From Campylobacteraceae bacterium (GTDB lineage: Bacteria > Campylobacterota > Campylobacteria > Campylobacterales > Sulfurovaceae), in the NCBI GenBank assembly GCA_027056615.1, contig JALUKJ010000022.1, positions 1 to 16,445 on the forward strand: a DNA stretch of 16,445 nucleotides. The letters are read 5' to 3'. A model generated the notes under the pieces. The model was not told the origin of the DNA. It saw only the letters and a list, made by a program, of their open reading frames with translations, and ran no database searches. The translations under genes and the position numbers were made by a program. Positions 510 to 9,291 of the stretch are shown in pieces (within the stretch, counting starts at the first letter, position 1; the number at the start of each line of letters is the position of its first letter).

Positions 510-3500
510 TTAAAACCTATACCGAACACTTACCCCATAAAGAGGCTCAGAGACCACACCAACACCATCACTATAATTTAAAACTACATCTAAAGAGTCT
601 TTGTTTTTAACAATCTTAGAAAGTCCAAGCGATAGAGAAGTTCCTACATTATGGTGGTCATTAATAGCCATACCAACTGTTCCAAAAGGTTTCCAGCCGT
701 GGTTAAAGCTATTTTCCCTAGAAGTTCCAACACTAGCCGAAACTCCAAACTCTGAAAAGTCTTGGGCAATAGTTGGTGTAAAGGTATTGTGTGAGATGTA
801 GCTGTTGAAGTGAATATCTGGGTAGCCTAAACGTAAGGTATAGTTTGCACTTAGTTGTGTACTCTCTCCATCTCCTAAAAAATCTCCATTTTGTCTAAAG
901 TAGTGACTCTTTTTATGTAAGAAACTAAGGCTTACTCGTGGGCTAATAGTGGTTAATAGGTTTACTCCTAATGTACTCTCCATTCCATCACGTTCTAAAA
1001 TAGGTGTTAACTCACTTTTGCTATGGTATTTACTATTTAAAGTAATTTGAAAAGGCTGAAAGTTATAACCTATATTAAGTCTGCTACTTATAAAATTATC
1101 TTGACTATTGTTGTAGGCTAACGCAAAATCCCAAAGTAGTTTTGAACTACTATTTTTTAAAGCAAACTCAATATTTTTATTGGTTTTAGTTGGCTCTTGA
1201 CTAGAGTTATATATTTCTTTACTTACAGTTATATTGGCTTTTAATTTTTGGTAGAGTCGCCATTGGTATCTAAATGATAATTTCTCTAAATCCAATAGAG
1301 AGCTTAAATGCTTTTTCTTTACATTGGTAATAAAATGAATATGTTCATCATTATTAATTTTTTCATAAGCCTCATTGAGTAGAGAAGTTTGGGCTAAACA
1401 GATATCTTTTATAAGTTGTTGGTACTCTTTGCTATGAGGGTTCTCTTTGAGTAGCTGTTGACTCCAACGTTTGGCAACATCTAGTTGTTTTAGTTGTAAA
1501 GCAGAAACAATTGAGACTAATCCAACCTTTTTTTGAAGTTGGCTATTTTGTTTTAGTAACGATAACTCTTCTTCAATTTTTATTTTAAAAGTTGAGTTTG
1601 TTTTTAGATTGTCAAGTAGTAACCATAAGTAAGATTGATGAGTTGCTATACGGTTGGGTGCTAACTTAAATGCTTTAGTATAAGCTTTTAATGCAAGAGT
1701 AATTTTATGACTTTGAACATAGTAATTTGCTAAAAGAAGCTGATATCCAATATTGCTACTAAGCTTTTCTTTCTCTTTTGTTTTTATGCTTTTTAGTACT
1801 TTTTGAAATTTTTTGAACTCCTTTTTATCACTTAAATAGTATAAAAGTGCTAGTAGATTGTTACTATTATGGGTTGTTTTCCACGCTTTTAGGTAGAGTT
1901 TATCTATCTTTTTACCCCTATTTAGTCCTTTCTCTAAAGCTATTAACCGTTCATAACCTGTAGAGTTAAGTTGTTGTTTTTCTTCAAATTTCCAAAGTGT
2001 TTTATATAGATAAGAATAATCTTTCTGTTGCCATGCAAGGTCGACTAATAAGCGTTTCTTTTTGAGTTTATTATGTTTATTTAGCTCTTTAGTAAGAGTG
2101 TATGCTTTGGAAAACTCTTTAATTGCCAATGCACGTTTAATAGCAACTCTTTGCAAAGAGGGATTAAGACCATATCTTCTTTTATACTCTTGGTAGAGTT
2201 TTAAGCCCTTTTTAAAGTGGCTATTATCAAAAGTAAAATGAATAGTTGCACCATATACCTCTTTGTTCTTAACTTTTTTTAGAAGTGTAGAGAAGTACTC
2301 TTCTGCTTTGTCTATTTCACCTGTAAAATCAAAGTACTTTGAGAGCTTTTTAATAAAACTATAATTACCTTTATCGATCTTATTTTTATATATTTCACCT
2401 AGAATTTGGTAGCTATTATTAATATTGCTATACTTTAACAGGTACTTTTCGTATTTACTATCTTTATACTTCTTATAACCTTTAATATTGAGTTGAGTTA
2501 CATTTTTCATCTCTCCTAGCCATGTTGAGAGTTGAATACTTTTATCAAGATATTTCTCTTTATGAAAAGTTATTTCAGCATAATTTGAAATAGCTAGTGC
2601 TGGTTCTAACTTTGAGTTATAGATAAGTGCTTTAAGTGCTAAATTTATACTTTTTTCATCAAACTTTATAGCATACTCTTCAAATAGGCTATTTGAAAAG
2701 TAACTAGCTTCACTTAGTCGTCCTTGCTGTAATAAAGTATTGATAATGGAGTAGATATCGGAGCTATTTATGTTATTGTTCTCTATATAATCATCTATAA
2801 GACGTACGGTAGAGACCTTTGCTCCATCTTTGCTTTGTCCAAGAATATAGAGGATTGTATAGAAATATCTGCTTCTCTCATCTTGACTTTTAGCATTTAA
2901 AAAGAGTGTTTGAACTACATCATAGGCTCTTTCAAACTCCTTATGTTGAATTAAAGAGTTAATAGCATAATCTTGTAATTTTTTATCTATCTCTTTATAA
3001 TTAAGCAGATTAATGAGATGTTCATAGGCATCTTTTTTATACCCTAAATTGTTTGCAAGATAGTAGCTTATTTTCTCTAGTTCATAATCTATAATTTCAG
3101 GTCTCTCTTGCATAAGTTTTTGGAGTGAGATATATTTTAAATAAGTGTAGTCAATATTTGTTGACTCTGCATAGAAAAATAGATTGTCTCTATTTTTTCC
3201 CATAAAATTATAGTATTTAAGAAGCATATCTTTAAGCTTTCTTAACTCTTTTTGATTTGGAGTTTGAAAGTATATATCTTTTTTTAGTAAATACTCTGTT
3301 TTATAGAGTTTAGTTAGTAATTTTTTATCTTTTGTTGTTTTAATTAAATCACTATTAAGTACTAATGCTTTTTTAGTCTTTCCCATATAGTCATATTTTT
3401 CAATTAGTAACATTTTTAGTTTAAGATTGTCAGGGTGGTAAAGTAACAAGCTCTCTAGGTAATTAATAGAGAGATTTGTATGTCCTTTAGAACTCTCTAA

Positions 3501-3629
3501 AAATGCCTCAATATCATCTTTTGGAAATAGTAGATACAACACAAATGCAAAGACAATAACAATTGCCCCAATCTCTTTTAATGAAAGTATGGAGGTGCTA
3601 GTATCGTGGTTATTGACACTTAAATACAA
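510..3629 (-). CDS. pelB: Pel polysaccharide export protein PelB (TPR scaffold plus outer-membrane beta-barrel)
   Basis: PelB carries the Pel polymer across the periplasm and outer membrane. The 1039-residue protein shows the family layout. A hydrophobic N-terminal segment lies at about residues 20-36. A long helical region rich in Lys, Leu and Tyr, at about 45-785, fits degenerate TPR repeats, which in the characterised protein bind PelA. About 785-1039 is beta-rich and alternates polar and hydrophobic residues, ending in VSVRYRF with the C-terminal Phe typical of Bam-inserted barrels. It is somewhat shorter than the Pseudomonas aeruginosa protein (about 1190 residues), the shortfall most likely in the repeat region. 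The start is a TTG at 3627-3629; an AAGGGG on the minus strand lies 6 nt upstream and no ATG precedes the membrane segment. It overlaps the end of pelA by 20 nt, implying coupled translation. It is the last gene of the operon. Confidence 0.88.
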   Translation of the reverse strand: MYLSVNNHDTSTSILSLKEIGAIVIVFAFVLYLLFPKDDIEAFLESSKGHTNLSINYLESLLLYHPDNLKLKMLLIEKYDYMGKTKKALVLNSDLIKTTKDKKLLTKLYKTEYLLKKDIYFQTPNQKELRKLKDMLLKYYNFMGKNRDNLFFYAESTNIDYTYLKYISLQKLMQERPEIIDYELEKISYYLANNLGYKKDAYEHLINLLNYKEIDKKLQDYAINSLIQHKEFERAYDVVQTLFLNAKSQDERSRYFYTILYILGQSKDGAKVSTVRLIDDYIENNNINSSDIYSIINTLLQQGRLSEASYFSNSLFEEYAIKFDEKSINLALKALIYNSKLEPALAISNYAEITFHKEKYLDKSIQLSTWLGEMKNVTQLNIKGYKKYKDSKYEKYLLKYSNINNSYQILGEIYKNKIDKGNYSFIKKLSKYFDFTGEIDKAEEYFSTLLKKVKNKEVYGATIHFTFDNSHFKKGLKLYQEYKRRYGLNPSLQRVAIKRALAIKEFSKAYTLTKELNKHNKLKKKRLLVDLAWQQKDYSYLYKTLWKFEEKQQLNSTGYERLIALEKGLNRGKKIDKLYLKAWKTTHNSNNLLALLYYLSDKKEFKKFQKVLKSIKTKEKEKLSSNIGYQLLLANYYVQSHKITLALKAYTKAFKLAPNRIATHQSYLWLLLDNLKTNSTFKIKIEEELSLLKQNSQLQKKVGLVSIVSALQLKQLDVAKRWSQQLLKENPHSKEYQQLIKDICLAQTSLLNEAYEKINNDEHIHFITNVKKKHLSSLLDLEKLSFRYQWRLYQKLKANITVSKEIYNSSQEPTKTNKNIEFALKNSSSKLLWDFALAYNNSQDNFISSRLNIGYNFQPFQITLNSKYHSKSELTPILERDGMESTLGVNLLTTISPRVSLSFLHKKSHYFRQNGDFLGDGESTQLSANYTLRLGYPDIHFNSYISHNTFTPTIAQDFSEFGVSASVGTSRENSFNHGWKPFGTVGMAINDHHNVGTSLSLGLSKIVKNKDSLDVVLNYSDGVGVVSEPLYGVSVRYRF

Positions 3630-6336
3630 CCGTTACCCCTTTTTTACTCTTGGAACTTAAAAAAAGTTTATGATGATTATGTCTGCTTTTTATGGTAATA
3701 TTGGTTTTAAAACTACACCCTTTTGGTAAGTAAAAGTTTGCCTCTATGGGCATATTTGCTCTAAGCTCAAAACTATTATTTGCTACTCTACTTACCCATC
3801 CATTAGAGTCAATAAGATAGGGTGATGAGGTCTTTTTAGCTAAGATAATTTTGTACTCTCCACTACTGTCTAAAGTAACATAAGTAGAGTTGTTATCAAA
3901 GTTAAACCCTGCTACTCCTTTGCTCTTTTTCATATCAATATAAATTTTTTTGTCAAAGCGAACACTACGTAAAAAACCACTATTGCATACCTCATATCCA
4001 CCTTTAATCTTTGCAATAGCTGTTCTATAAAAACCTCGTCCTTTTTTGATATATTGAGAGGTATAGAGTTTAGATGTTTTCTGTTTCATTACCCACTCAT
4101 AGACCTCTTTTAGAGCATTAAGTGAAGATAGTTTAGAGCCATAGTAGTAGTGATAGTAGAGGTCAATTGGTTTAAGTCGATATGGTCTGTTAGTCATTTT
4201 ATATGTCTCTATAACATTTCTAAAACCCCAAAATGGTCCTAACCAATCGTTAGTATAGACATTCTCATCTTGTTCACCTGTATATATTTGCCAATACTCT
4301 CCACGCTCTATTCCAAAAGGGGCAATATAGGCAAGAGTTGGATTTTTCTTTTGAACAGTAGTATCTCCACCATTAAGGCTAAGAATCCCTTGTCTTTCAA
4401 TATAGGCTAAAATATCTCTAGTGGGTTGACAATCTCCTGACCAAAAGAGAAGTTTCTCTTTTTGTTTACTCTTTGGAGCAAATGAGAGTGCATAGTTAAT
4501 ACTTCCTATAGTCTCTTTTTGTAAAGAGAAGTAGTAGTTTTTAATAGGAAGATGAAAATGTTTTCCTACCTCTGGTGACCTATTTTTAGGTAATACTGCC
4601 TTTGCCCAAAAAAATGGGTGTGAATAGGTATGACTTGCAGGTTCAATCCAAGGTATAGCGTAAAGTTCTCTTACATCTTTTTTGAGTCTTTTAGTTAGTT
4701 TTGGAAAAATCTCCTCTATCTCCCCTTCAATAATGGATACACTTTGAGGTATTTTATACTTTTTAAATATTGGCTCCATAAGATACTCAATAGCTAGTAT
4801 ATCCATATTCATACGTACACGCTCAATCGAACCATCTCCATCAATATGCACAAAGAGTATTCGTCTACCTGCCTCTGTAGTTGGGTCAGGCATAGGAATA
4901 TCCTCTAGCTGTAAAGCCTCTTTTAGAAATTTAAAAGGGTTAATACTCCAATAGTTAGTATTGTCAATATCTGTTAAAAAGCTACTACTAATAGCATATC
5001 CACCCCAAGGAGTAATGGCTATGGGTTGGCTTTTTTGCCCATTTGGGTAAGTTGTCTCTATAATGGCTTTAGAGTGTGAACCTTTAATAAGTGTTGACTC
5101 AAAATCGACCGAAGCAGGTATCTCATAGGGTTTAAAACCATTGTGATAGTTAGTATGAACATTAGAGGTAAATCTGTTTTTATTTTTCTTAACACTTAAT
5201 CCAAATCTTTTTAGATTTTGATTGTTTTTTTCAAAAATAAAACTATTAAAAAAGAGTATTTTAACTCCTTGTTGTTTAACTTTTTGAGTCCATTCATAGA
5301 TTTTATCATCATTTTTAGTATGTCCATTTGACCAAACCACTACAGCGTGATATCTGTCTTCAACATGTTGAGGAAGCTCTTTAGTCGAGATGTCATAGAG
5401 TATAGGAATATATCCAAAATGTTCAATAGGCATAGAGATAGAGAGATGAACATCGGAATAGATAGAATTATGCTCTTTAAAAGCAGAAGAATTAAATAAA
5501 ATAAGTATATTTCGCCGAATACGCTCCACTTCACATTCACCTTGCTCTTGAAGTAAGCCATCTGTAACATAAGGGATAATTCCAAGCTTTTTAATCTTTT
5601 TAGCAATTTCCAGTCGCTCTTTAGTTGAACCATTACTATAGTCTATAGAGATGATATCTAAACCATATTTTTTTGCCTCTTTAAGTCGAGCTAAAATCCA
5701 TTTATAGTCTGCTTTAGGAACTTTACCATAACTCTTAGTCGCATTATCATAACGAGAGAGTAGGCTCTCTGCTACAACAGCAGATACATCGTTATGAATC
5801 TTATCAAGCAGTTCAAACCCACGATTTAAAATAAGCTTTGATTTTGGGTACTGTTTATGAAGTTTATGAATAATCTCAATTAATGCCTTTTGTTGATGTT
5901 TAAATAGTTTTTTGTCTTTGGCTGTTACATGGTAGGCATCCATTGTATCTAAAAAGAAGTTTCTATACCCCTTTTTATAGAGTGAAGCAACACGCTCAAA
6001 GATAAAGTTTTGATACTCTTTATTGCGTAAATCAGCAATAAGAGAGTTCCATGTCTTGTTTTTAGAGATAACCCATGATTTTTTGTAAGGGGTTTTAGTC
6101 TTTCTCCAAGGTTCAATCTCTCCTACACTTACATAGGCTACCATCTTTTGAGGGTATCGAATAGCGTAGATATTATCAATAGCATCAGCATCCACCACTA
6201 TTTTATCATAGAAGTTAATAAAAGTATCATCAATATTTTTACTGTAGATAAACGCATAACGATTGTCAGCAAAAACTCCTGAGAGTAGTAGTAAAAAAAG
6301 TACTAGTACCCTATTGCAACATAAATGTTTGATAAT
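3610..6336 (-). CDS. pelA: Pel polysaccharide hydrolase/deacetylase PelA, with non-canonical start
   Basis: PelA is a periplasmic bifunctional enzyme that partly deacetylates and cleaves the GalNAc-rich Pel polymer. The first ordinary start codon in frame is a GTG at 6196-6198, but translation upstream stays open to a TAG at 6337-6339 and encodes a clear signal peptide: IIKHLCCNR, then VLVLFLLLLSGVFA, then DNRYAF. I therefore extend the gene to about 6336 (908 residues; about 948 in Pseudomonas). Numbering from there, residues about 24-260 form a GH114-like TIM barrel with FLDTMDAY and a candidate catalytic Glu in VVAES (about 190). A reductase-like/linker region follows. The deacetylase has VHIDGDGS (about 496-503) and ASHTYSH (about 567-573), giving the metal-binding Asp-His-His set. 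A beta-rich C-terminal domain ends the protein. It overlaps pelG by about 26 nt and pelB by 20 nt. The function is secure; the start codon is not. Confidence 0.88.
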   Translation of the reverse strand: MIKHLCCNRVLVLFLLLLSGVFADNRYAFIYSKNIDDTFINFYDKIVVDADAIDNIYAIRYPQKMVAYVSVGEIEPWRKTKTPYKKSWVISKNKTWNSLIADLRNKEYQNFIFERVASLYKKGYRNFFLDTMDAYHVTAKDKKLFKHQQKALIEIIHKLHKQYPKSKLILNRGFELLDKIHNDVSAVVAESLLSRYDNATKSYGKVPKADYKWILARLKEAKKYGLDIISIDYSNGSTKERLEIAKKIKKLGIIPYVTDGLLQEQGECEVERIRRNILILFNSSAFKEHNSIYSDVHLSISMPIEHFGYIPILYDISTKELPQHVEDRYHAVVVWSNGHTKNDDKIYEWTQKVKQQGVKILFFNSFIFEKNNQNLKRFGLSVKKNKNRFTSNVHTNYHNGFKPYEIPASVDFESTLIKGSHSKAIIETTYPNGQKSQPIAITPWGGYAISSSFLTDIDNTNYWSINPFKFLKEALQLEDIPMPDPTTEAGRRILFVHIDGDGSIERVRMNMDILAIEYLMEPIFKKYKIPQSVSIIEGEIEEIFPKLTKRLKKDVRELYAIPWIEPASHTYSHPFFWAKAVLPKNRSPEVGKHFHLPIKNYYFSLQKETIGSINYALSFAPKSKQKEKLLFWSGDCQPTRDILAYIERQGILSLNGGDTTVQKKNPTLAYIAPFGIERGEYWQIYTGEQDENVYTNDWLGPFWGFRNVIETYKMTNRPYRLKPIDLYYHYYYGSKLSSLNALKEVYEWVMKQKTSKLYTSQYIKKGRGFYRTAIAKIKGGYEVCNSGFLRSVRFDKKIYIDMKKSKGVAGFNFDNNSTYVTLDSSGEYKIILAKKTSSPYLIDSNGWVSRVANNSFELRANMPIEANFYLPKGCSFKTNITIKSRHNHHKLFLSSKSKKGVTVVFKCQ

Positions 6337-7711
6337 CTAACTCCTGTAAAATTTTATTTAAAGTACGAATGGAACTCACAAAAAGAATAAGTAGTGCAAC
6401 GCTATAACCATAACCGTAAAAGTAAGGTCCCATCTGAATACTTACCCATGTAAGTAGTGCATTAAGTAGAACAAATGCCAAGGTATAGAGTAGTGCCTCT
6501 TTTTGTTTATCAAGATAGTAAAGATACGCCAAAATAGACATAAACCCAAGCTGTAACTGAACACCAATAACATCTACATAAAATAGAGGTAGATATAGTT
6601 TAGGTAGAGAAAATAACTCAAAAATGGTCTCTGCACTTAAAAAAAGTAGAATATTGAACATACCCTGAACAAACAAAATTTCTTGGATAGAGCGAGTAAC
6701 TGCATTTATCATCTGTTGTTTATGGTACTTAATTTGGCTCAAAGCACTATGTTTATTGATAGCACGGTAGAACTGCTCATAAGATTTGGCAAAGTCTACT
6801 TCTAGCCTAAAGAAGAAAATAGCCATACCAGGGATAATAGAAAGGTATGCTAAAAAGATAGGAAAATCATACACCATTGAGGCATGAAGCTTACCAATAA
6901 CTATATATCCCACAATAGGAGAGAACCAAAAGATAACCTTGTCAATCCAAATGGCTATATTGTAGAACATTCCAGAAAAACCAAGTTTCCAGTAAAATTT
7001 ACCATAGATATTTTGAAAAGCATCAAAACGAATAAATCGATTATTTGCTTTATTATAAGATGGGTAGTAGTAGATAATCCCCAAAAAGAGTAAAATAAAA
7101 AGTAGGGAGTTTCCAATAATAAAAGCAATAAGAAGTCCAAGAATCCCAAAATCTCTAAGAAGATAAGCAACAAGATAGATAAGTGCATATCCTGCAAGAT
7201 AGAATAAGATAACCTGTTTATATAGCTTTAGACTTGCTGCTAAAATATTTGCAATCCAAACACAAGAGAGAACAATAAATAGCGTTACATAGAGCAGAAC
7301 AAAAAAATTACTCTGTGTATCAAAGAGGAAAATTGCTAATGGTAGAGAGATAATTAACCCTCCAATAATGGTTAAAATAATTATCCCTAAAAAATTCGGT
7401 AAGATTAAGTAGTGCCTCTTCTCATACATTCTATCGGCAATAAAACGGGTAAATGGAAGCTGAAAAAACCCTGTATAGACCGAGCTTAGGGCTAAAGCAG
7501 AGACATAGGTAACCGAAGCCTTCAACATAGTTTGAGTTGGGTCTTGGGTATGGTATAGGTAGATATTTGCAAGACCAATTCCCAAGATAATAATCATCGA
7601 AATAACCCAAGGACCAGAACTTAAAATTGCCGAATATCCAAAGGTTTTAAGGACAGCCGTTAGTGTTCTCTCTCTTAAAATCTGTTTTAACTCAAAACCT
7701 ATTCCTGCCAT
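6311..7711 (-). CDS. pelG: Pel polysaccharide transport membrane protein PelG
   Basis: PelG is the polytopic inner-membrane protein of the Pel synthase complex. It belongs to the MOP flippase-like superfamily and, with PelD, PelE and PelF, moves the growing chain across the inner membrane. The 466-residue product begins with the characteristic family opening MAGIGFELKQILRERT followed by SSGPWVISMI. It contains about twelve hydrophobic segments spread to the C-terminus, interrupted by a charged loop near residues 325-350 (DFAKSYEQFYRAINKHS). The length matches the usual 450-460 residues. The ATG at 7709-7711 overlaps the pelF stop by one base (TAATG), with an AAGGA-type Shine-Dalgarno a few bases upstream inside pelF. 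Its 3' end overlaps the inferred start of pelA. Nothing appears truncated. Confidence 0.92.
   Translation of the reverse strand: MAGIGFELKQILRERTLTAVLKTFGYSAILSSGPWVISMIIILGIGLANIYLYHTQDPTQTMLKASVTYVSALALSSVYTGFFQLPFTRFIADRMYEKRHYLILPNFLGIIILTIIGGLIISLPLAIFLFDTQSNFFVLLYVTLFIVLSCVWIANILAASLKLYKQVILFYLAGYALIYLVAYLLRDFGILGLLIAFIIGNSLLFILLFLGIIYYYPSYNKANNRFIRFDAFQNIYGKFYWKLGFSGMFYNIAIWIDKVIFWFSPIVGYIVIGKLHASMVYDFPIFLAYLSIIPGMAIFFFRLEVDFAKSYEQFYRAINKHSALSQIKYHKQQMINAVTRSIQEILFVQGMFNILLFLSAETIFELFSLPKLYLPLFYVDVIGVQLQLGFMSILAYLYYLDKQKEALLYTLAFVLLNALLTWVSIQMGPYFYGYGYSVALLILFVSSIRTLNKILQELDYQTFMLQ
6341..6345 (-). promoter_or_regulatory. Probable Shine-Dalgarno for pelA, inside the end of pelG
   Basis: The minus strand reads AGGAG here, within the last codons of pelG. 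It lies 4 nt before an ATT (6334-6336) and 7 nt before an ATC (6331-6333), the only two codons ahead of the PelA signal peptide in the right frame. The spacing favours ATC or ATT as initiation codon. The motif also encodes part of pelG's Gln-Glu-Leu, so it may be coincidental. Confidence 0.4.
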
Positions 7712-9291
7712 TAGCTATCCTTTTTAGGAACCGATGGCTTTAGCCCCGATTCCAAAGAGTTTTTAGATAACTTTAAGCTCTCAAATGTATCTTCATAAAC
7801 CTTTTGATAAGTATCTAAAAAAAGTTCTTGGGTATAGAAGGTATTGACTCTTTTTATAGCAACCTCTTGTGCTTCTAACCATCGCTCTTCATTGCTAAGT
7901 AGTTCAATATAACCATTTGCTAAAGCTTCAGAGTCAGCAATGGGGCAAACGACACCTGCACTTCCTAATGCTTTGTCCTCTTCATTTTCACCACCATAGA
8001 TTAGCTCTTCACACGAACCAACATCAGTACTTACACAAGGTACTCCTGCTGCGAATCCCTCTAAAATAACCAAAGGCATACCCTCACTAATAGAAGTTAG
8101 AGTTAAAATCCCACTTTGAGGTAAAATTTTAGATATGTCTTGAAAACCTAAAAACTTAATATTCTTTTTCACATCGAGTATCTCAATAAGCTCAAAACAC
8201 TCTTGGGCATACTCTTTCTCTTCATCGTCAGGGCCAACAACCCATGCTTCTACATCAGGCAAAGTATTGGCTGTAATACGAATGGCTTGAATAAAGGTTT
8301 TAATATCTTTAATCGAAACCACACGACCAATAAGAGTAATAACTTGGGGAATCCCCTCTGGGCGATTTTCAATGGTTTTACCCAACTTTTCAATATCGAC
8401 CCCATTAGGAATAACACGACAGAGTTTAGGGTCAGCACCATAGGCAATTTGTGTATCTTTAGCCACTCCAAAAAGAGACAAAATAGGGTTAGCACGGCTA
8501 TAGCTCATCTTTCCAATTCCTTCAAAAAAACGTACCCACATACTCTGAATATAGTTAGTTGCCGAGGTATCTCTAAATATATCTAGTTTAGTATATAGAT
8601 TTAGAGAAGAGGAGATAAGGTCAATTTTTCGCTCTTTGGTATAGATACCATGTTCGGTTAAGATAAATGGTTTATTAGTCTCATTCGCAATCAGTGTTGA
8701 GAGAAACCCTGCATAACCTGTTGATGGCGAGTGAACAATCTTCCCTTTGTCTTTTAATAGTTCTGCTAGTTTTGCCATCTTCCAGATAGGAATATGAATA
8801 CTTCGTACAGACCAAAAGTAGTCTAAAAAAGAGAGGTCACTGGCATTTTCTTGGTTCATATTGCATATAAAATACCACGCCTCTTTACTATAGAGAAAGG
8901 TTGATTCATTAATTTTGTTAAGATAAAAGTCAAGATTTTTAACCTCTTTAGGAAAGCTCTCCTGACTCTTCTCTTCTCTAAACCACTGGTATAGTTTTTT
9001 TACCTTTTCAAAATCCTCTACTGAACCATTCTTCTCTTTAATAGGTGGTTTCTCCCCCTCATCAAACATAAAAAGCTCTACAACATAGACCAAGTTCTTA
9101 GGAAACTCATAGAGAGGTTTTGGAGGGTAGTCAGCTTTTCTACTTCCAATAAACACCACTCCAAACTTATATTGAGGTAGTCCTGTAATAAGTTGTGCAA
9201 TCCATGAAGCAACTCCACCACGAACAAAGGGATAGGTTCCCTCACAAGGTATCAAGATGTCAAATTCACTAATATCATGTAGAATTTTCAT
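7711..9291 (-). CDS. pelF: Pel polysaccharide glycosyltransferase PelF (GT4 family)
   Basis: PelF is the cytosolic glycosyltransferase that polymerises Pel from UDP-sugars; UDP-GlcNAc/GalNAc use is known for the family. The 526-residue protein has a GT-B fold. The N-terminal domain contains PCEGTYPFVRGGVASWI (residues about 15-31) and LTEHGIYTKERKID (about 211-224). The C-terminal domain has IPNGVDIEKL (about 294-303), LIGRVVSIKDIKTF (about 320-333) and the donor-binding SEGMPLVILEGFAAGVP (about 402-418), whose Glu403 and Glu411 form the GT4 E-x7-E motif. No signal peptide or membrane segment is visible, as expected. The ATG at 9289-9291 shares one base with the pelE stop, and a GGAG lies about 6 nt upstream. 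It is full length with key residues present. Confidence 0.95.
   Translation of the reverse strand: MKILHDISEFDILIPCEGTYPFVRGGVASWIAQLITGLPQYKFGVVFIGSRKADYPPKPLYEFPKNLVYVVELFMFDEGEKPPIKEKNGSVEDFEKVKKLYQWFREEKSQESFPKEVKNLDFYLNKINESTFLYSKEAWYFICNMNQENASDLSFLDYFWSVRSIHIPIWKMAKLAELLKDKGKIVHSPSTGYAGFLSTLIANETNKPFILTEHGIYTKERKIDLISSSLNLYTKLDIFRDTSATNYIQSMWVRFFEGIGKMSYSRANPILSLFGVAKDTQIAYGADPKLCRVIPNGVDIEKLGKTIENRPEGIPQVITLIGRVVSIKDIKTFIQAIRITANTLPDVEAWVVGPDDEEKEYAQECFELIEILDVKKNIKFLGFQDISKILPQSGILTLTSISEGMPLVILEGFAAGVPCVSTDVGSCEELIYGGENEEDKALGSAGVVCPIADSEALANGYIELLSNEERWLEAQEVAIKRVNTFYTQELFLDTYQKVYEDTFESLKLSKNSLESGLKPSVPKKDS

Follow-up and report, generated by a model that had tools for sequence, protein, structure and literature searches.

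The pel operon and the start region of pelA

The window, by which we mean the whole 16,445 nt stretch of DNA analysed here, comes from a genome assembly of 467 contigs and carries on its minus strand part of a pel operon, consisting of pelF, pelG, pelA and a pelB-like gene (Table 1). PelA sits in the context expected of it, with pelF and pelG upstream and the pelB-like gene downstream; it contains a GH114-type hydrolase domain (PF03537, E 1.2e-20), and its residues 29–867, counted from the ATT codon described below, give a near full-length match to 9cgy_A (E 2e-115). The apparent TTG start of the pelB-like gene (3627-3629, minus strand) also lies inside pelA, with an AAGGGG motif upstream, and this second pel gene may likewise have a weak, overlapping start.

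Table 1 Features of the pel operon in the window.
Feature	Position	Strand	Basis
pelF	7711..9291	-	NCBIfam PelF, 588 bits
pelG	6311..7711	-	PF16933, E 3e-123; C-terminus ...LQELDYQTFMLQ
pelG stop TAG	6313-6311	-	read from sequence
pelA, full-length reading (hydrolase + deacetylase)	3610..6333	-	PF03537; 9cgy_A alignment
Proposed pelA start codon ATC (AUC)	6331..6333	-	homologous-codon comparison
Shine-Dalgarno AGGAG inside pelG, 7 nt 5' of ATC	6341..6345	-	xGGAG in 19/19 genus overlapping pairs
pelG end/pelA start overlap, 23 nt	6311..6333	-	read from sequence
Predicted Sec signal peptide (fMet)KHLCCNRVLVLFLLLLSGVFA, cleavage after VFA by eye	6268..6333	-	hydropathy + eye
GTG, first ordinary in-frame start, residue 47 counted from ATT; judged false start	6196..6198	-	
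pelB-like TPR/beta-barrel protein, TTG start overlapping pelA	510..3629	-	PF24604

Read along the minus strand, the start region runs TAG (6339-6337), ATT (6336-6334) and ATC (6333-6331), followed by AAA CAT TTA TGT TGC AAT AGG GTA, with the AGGAG (6345-6341) placed 4 nt before the ATT and 7 nt before the ATC. The original prediction, made from the letters of the window, held that the pelA frame contains no ATG, GTG or TTG upstream of the GTG at 6198-6196, and that this stretch encodes a signal peptide and the first strand of the hydrolase. Both statements are borne out by our reading of the frame (IIKHLCCNRVLVLFLLLLSGVFADNRYAFIYS...), which lacks all three codons from the stop at 6337-6339 to that GTG; the export signal, recognised by hydropathy and by eye, belongs to the protein only if translation begins upstream of the GTG. 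The remaining two frames stop within 10 codons, so a single indel in the T run would supply no start, as had also been argued. With up to two mismatches allowed, the window contains the 15-mer AGGAGTTAGATTATC a single time (0.07 expected). The same ATC, Shine-Dalgarno (SD) sequence and frame are found in two relatives, G022 and G017 (87% and 81% PelA identity), and the pattern recurs across the genus, hence it is not an error of the window assembly alone.

The homologous codon in relatives

PelA homologues were found in 22 of the 34 genomes of the genus, all fragmented assemblies, and PelG in 28 of 175 family genomes and in 43 of 398 genomes drawn from the order (30 of 46 places became loci); to these were added the best 80 of at least 523 PelG matches in named genome records. 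Identical junctions were merged and one locus whose contig ends before the stop (L049) was left out, giving 116 distinct pelG ends, of which 66 rows count as Campylobacterota, judged by their record title or by the order search (22 within the genus and 44 outside it). The named records that share an identical junction with a genus locus are assemblies of uncultured Sulfurovum and of other Campylobacterota, most of them carrying MAG in their title.

The C-terminus of PelG is near constant, mostly ...Y-x-T-F-M-L followed by Q, R or H and the stop, and the pelA start codon overlaps the codons for the tyrosine and for residue x. The third base of the start codon doubles as the first of codon x, so that substitutions in PelG switch the pelA start: glutamate gives ATG, glutamine ATC and lysine ATA. 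Outside the genus, residue x is glutamate and the pelA codon ATG in all 44 sampled rows, the frame staying open for more than 60 codons in 42, so ATG is found in 42 of 42 open overlapping pairs. Of the two other rows, L178 has no pelA frame after the junction, and in L051 (G126) a duplication repeats 30 nt around the pelG end, including the pelA ATG, 122 nt downstream; here pelA comes after the second copy, which naturally uncouples the two genes. Within the genus, 19 of 22 junctions have an open pelA frame, beginning with ATC in nine, ATA in five and ATG in five; a non-ATG codon is thus kept in 14 of 19 overlapping pairs, and the comparison with the rows outside the genus gives a Fisher p of 5e-10 (relatedness ignored). 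At the three exceptions the frame after the ATC or ATA closes within 11–19 codons and pelA does not follow: in L038 and L046 pelA has its own ATG just downstream, and in L039 no pelA frame was found after the site, the PelA pieces of that genome lying on other contigs.

The alignment therefore places a conserved extension upstream of the GTG in the related genomes, starting at a codon that is ATC, ATA or, in some relatives, ATG, in support of the predicted pelA start inside pelG at a codon other than ATG, GTG or TTG. The prediction had left the choice between ATT and ATC; the comparison favours the ATC, constrained to ATC, ATA or ATG, over the preceding codon, which varies freely between ATT (as in the window) and ACT. 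By eye, three loci from Elusimicrobia records (L115, L125 and L155), outside the Campylobacterota, show the same overlap with an ATG and then a hydrophobic stretch. One genus genome also encodes, elsewhere, a second protein (G026:C175:10704-11495, L026), which is shorter than PelA and 34% identical to the N-terminal part of the latter.

All 44 rows sampled from outside the genus have ATG, which, with a PelG ending ...YETFMLQ, is likely the ancestral state of the codon. Parsimony requires at least four changes between ATG and non-ATG among 24 labelled rows (3 of 27 being left out), and a loss-only model rooted in ATG and a reversible model have much the same negative log-likelihood (8.77 and 8.52), such that repeated losses and losses with regain are indistinguishable. 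Three database proteins (P0087, P0088 and P0093; protein data only) begin two codons further upstream, at a TTG-like codon or ATG.

Signal peptide, Shine-Dalgarno sequence and database predictions

In all 14 non-ATG genomes the pelA frame is open and encodes a strongly hydrophobic core by hydropathy. Nine of these, including the window, have no ATG, GTG or TTG from the upstream stop to the mature protein, whilst the other five (L033, L035, L041, L047 and L048) have ATG or TTG codons within the signal peptide and three of the five an upstream in-frame TTG, at codon -16 (L035 and L047) or codon -2 (L048). Second codon positions of the signal-peptide core tend to be spared, with 20 of 129 differences against ca. 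43 expected over nine partly overlapping pairs of relatives: 0 of 7 in L027–L029, 1 of 24 in L031–L033 and 5 of 28 in L036 with L042 or L045, whereas in L030–L033 they are not spared (5 of 13).

All 19 overlapping pairs of the genus have an xGGAG 7 nt before the start codon. When its first codon encodes glutamine, this is CAG in 16 of 16 cases vs. 110 of 312 (35%) in the pelG body, the remaining three rows having CGG, AAG and GAG; the glutamate codon is GAG in 19 of 19 (59% in the body) and the tyrosine codon TAT in 19 of 19 (67% in the body), all of these comparisons ignoring shared ancestry. The three genus genomes without pelA at the site have CAA twice and CAG once, with GAG and TAT in 3 of 3. 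The predicted SD duplex energies of the 14 non-ATG cases (-6.9 to -8.7 kcal/mol) are stronger than those of 38 other Campylobacterota junctions (mean -5.9, range -12.4 to -2.6 kcal/mol; Mann–Whitney p 0.002, uncorrected for relatedness). Compensation specific to the non-ATG codons was rejected as a reading of this difference, the SD being equally strong in five genus genomes with ATG and in four family genomes, and the strong SD is at most permissive. In the two nearest relatives (L028 and L029) the RNA from 20 nt before to 40 nt after the ATC is predicted to fold at -12.7 and -13.0 kcal/mol, vs. -2.6 in the window, much more stably than in most of the others too.

Database PelA clusters were collected as 349 hits at E ≤1e-100 among 8000 scored candidates, of which the best 120 were listed and P0001–P0097 examined. 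Among these 97 near full-length clusters, 44 begin M[K/R/Q], the form expected if the site holds ATG, 43 start within the signal peptide or beyond it, and ten have another complete start. On their tree the ATG and truncated classes require at least 11 changes (87 clusters labelled), against a minimum of 23 and a mean of 29.6 in 200 shuffles of the labels. A truncated prediction is only an indirect sign that the codon is not ATG. From the second residue on, nine of the 97 are identical to genus loci: all six from non-ATG junctions are truncated (P0004 from G017, P0033 from G031, P0062 from G030, P0066 from G001, P0076 from G029 and P0094 from G008), and all three with ATG at the site or downstream are complete (P0050 from G009, P0054 from G011 and P0083 from G007). 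P0033, P0062 and P0076 are labelled ‘Extracellular Matrix protein PelA’ of uncultured Sulfurovum. Standard annotation hence strips the signal peptide, wholly or partly, from an exported Pel enzyme in several Sulfurovum-like entries.

A dispersed, palindrome-like repeat, GGCTAAAGCCATCGGTTCC, is present at the 3' end of pelF (7727-7745, minus strand), in frame as SLESGLKPSVP. There are 19 exact copies in the window genome and 80 in G004, and the repeat occurs in 18 of the 34 genus genomes, in a search of which its reversed control gave no copies. In L040 (G028) a longer copy of this repeat separates the pelA start codon from the signal peptide without breaking the frame, and several database PelAs, e.g. 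P0061, P0067 and P0081, have similar inserts at their N-terminus. The repeat resembles protein-coding palindromic repeats such as the Rickettsia RPE.

Proposed initiation at AUC, its alternatives and known systems

We consider it highly probable, from the comparative sequence evidence, that pelA starts at the AUC (6333-6331), read by the ordinary initiator tRNA and placed by the AGGAG, 23 nt before the end of pelG. The initiating fMet-tRNA would be positioned by the SD 7 nt upstream, and ribosomes finishing pelG would probably assist; the overlap makes translational coupling of pelG and pelA likely. A change of PelG glutamate to glutamine or lysine would have turned the overlapping AUG into AUC or AUA, with the strong SD and the coupling keeping pelA translated, probably at a lower level, and the product would be exported. 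The ordinary initiator anticodon arm GGGCTCATAACCC was found as an exact pattern in 29 of 34 genus genomes, and an arm with a changed first anticodon base, also searched as an exact pattern, in 0 of 34 (five of which gave no match to the ordinary arm). In infC, examined for an AUN start, all 30 genus loci (from 31 genomes with a match) have TTG, thus it yields no second AUN-start gene as a positive control, and from infC alone there is no sign of a general AUN habit in the genus.

A lower PelA level owing to the rare codon, a possibility raised in the original prediction, is plausible by analogy, as expected from the reported weakness of AUN starts elsewhere. AUU is cited as giving ca. 0.3% of the AUG level in E. 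coli (PMC10666635), and in S. aureus reporters AUA and AUU starts reach ~10–30% of AUG (PMC13009471). Weaker third-base pairs are described as disfavoured by IF3 (PMC10158994), and AUA, AUU and AUC are counted among the seven strongest start codons (PMC12350097).

Among other readings of the junction, initiation one codon earlier, at the ATT (6336-6334), would share the frame and the AGGAG, yet it appears very unlikely: the SD would stand just 4 nt away, five of the 19 overlapping genus genomes have ACT here (with the Asp codon GAC in PelG), and the ATG of relatives corresponds to the next codon. We regard as similarly improbable a +1 frameshift at the end of pelG, which would make a PelG–PelA fusion with the signal peptide as an internal, cleaved segment. 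In its favour are the pelA frame, which is +1 to pelG, and the SD-like sequence upstream; however, no slippery site for programmed frameshifting was seen by eye on the genus junctions, with no re-pairing at CAR TAR or TTG nor from CAA to AAU, in relatives an ordinary ATG occupies this position, pelA exists with its own downstream ATG (L038 and L046), and the L051 duplication puts a second copy of the ATG away from pelG.

A start at the GTG (6198-6196), with a cytosolic PelA, has in its favour that this is the first ordinary start codon and that database predictions for some close relatives begin even later (P0002 and P0004), but it would delete residues 26–46, which are conserved in relatives and, from residue 29 on, align to solved PelA structures; it would also leave the conserved signal peptide unexplained, and the Pel model has PelA in the periplasm (PMC12022489). 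We give it very little weight, and the original warning that the first ordinary start loses the signal peptide holds. About as remote is initiation at some other codon, or at several weak starts together: there are a number of codons close to the SD, and L035, L047 and L048 have an in-frame TTG upstream, but the window has no such codon, and only the AT[C/A/G] codon is kept as ATN with the correct spacing. The division of the genome into 467 contigs would suit a sequencing or assembly error that hid an ATG, an explanation we find scarcely credible, given that the homologous codon is ATC or ATA in 14 genomes and agrees in each with an intact glutamine or lysine codon of PelG.

For the preferred start at the AUC, a wider proposition is that a coupled overlap with a strong SD needs only AUN, and that AUG, AUC and AUA are interchangeable dosage settings reached through evolution of the upstream protein; we put this forward tentatively, as rather doubtful at present. 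If true, the pelG–pelA junction would be a natural series of dosage settings, and annotation would be concealing many coupled genes that start with AUH. The junctions form a natural experiment in which AUG, AUC and AUA have changed several times with SD, spacing and product alike, so the native junctions let start-codon strength and coupling be measured, and they show an overlapping gene dictating the start codon of its neighbour. In the open-access literature we found no report of a non-AUG pelA start, nor of a bacterial start-codon series set by an overlapping gene.

In E. coli, infC and pcnB have AUU starts, near-cognate AUN codons that lower translation; pelA differs in encoding no translation factor and in offering no suggestion of autoregulation such as is mentioned for E. 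coli, and infC of the genus uses TTG. Pseudomonas pelA has an ordinary start, unlike the pelA of the window with its AUC buried in pelG. The products are alike, Pseudomonas PelA (9cgy and 5tcb) being described as a hydrolase and deacetylase with a signal sequence for export (PMC12022489). In pairs coupled by termination–reinitiation (PMC10666635, PMC2268962), the second gene begins inside the first, close to the stop of the latter, as in pelA, although the 23 nt pelG/pelA overlap is longer than the common overlaps of 1, 4 or 8 nt. A natural loss of AUG to AUA is described for rpoS in one E. coli isolate (PMC12864459). The closest parallels are the AUN starts of S. aureus ccpN (AUA), cvfC1 (AUU), infC (AUA) and citZ (AUA), of which ccpN, cvfC1 and infC share with pelA a strong, extended SD, and ccpN and cvfC1 a start conserved among relatives (PMC13009471). 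The S. aureus starts are not described as lying inside another gene in the available text of that source, whereas the pelA codon is fixed by the upstream gene, and pelA further differs in using AUC and in varying between AUG, AUC and AUA in one genus (PMC13009471). Conserved AUN starts as such are already known from ccpN and cvfC1 (PMC13009471); what appears to be new is a start codon tied to an overlapping gene and changed repeatedly within one genus.
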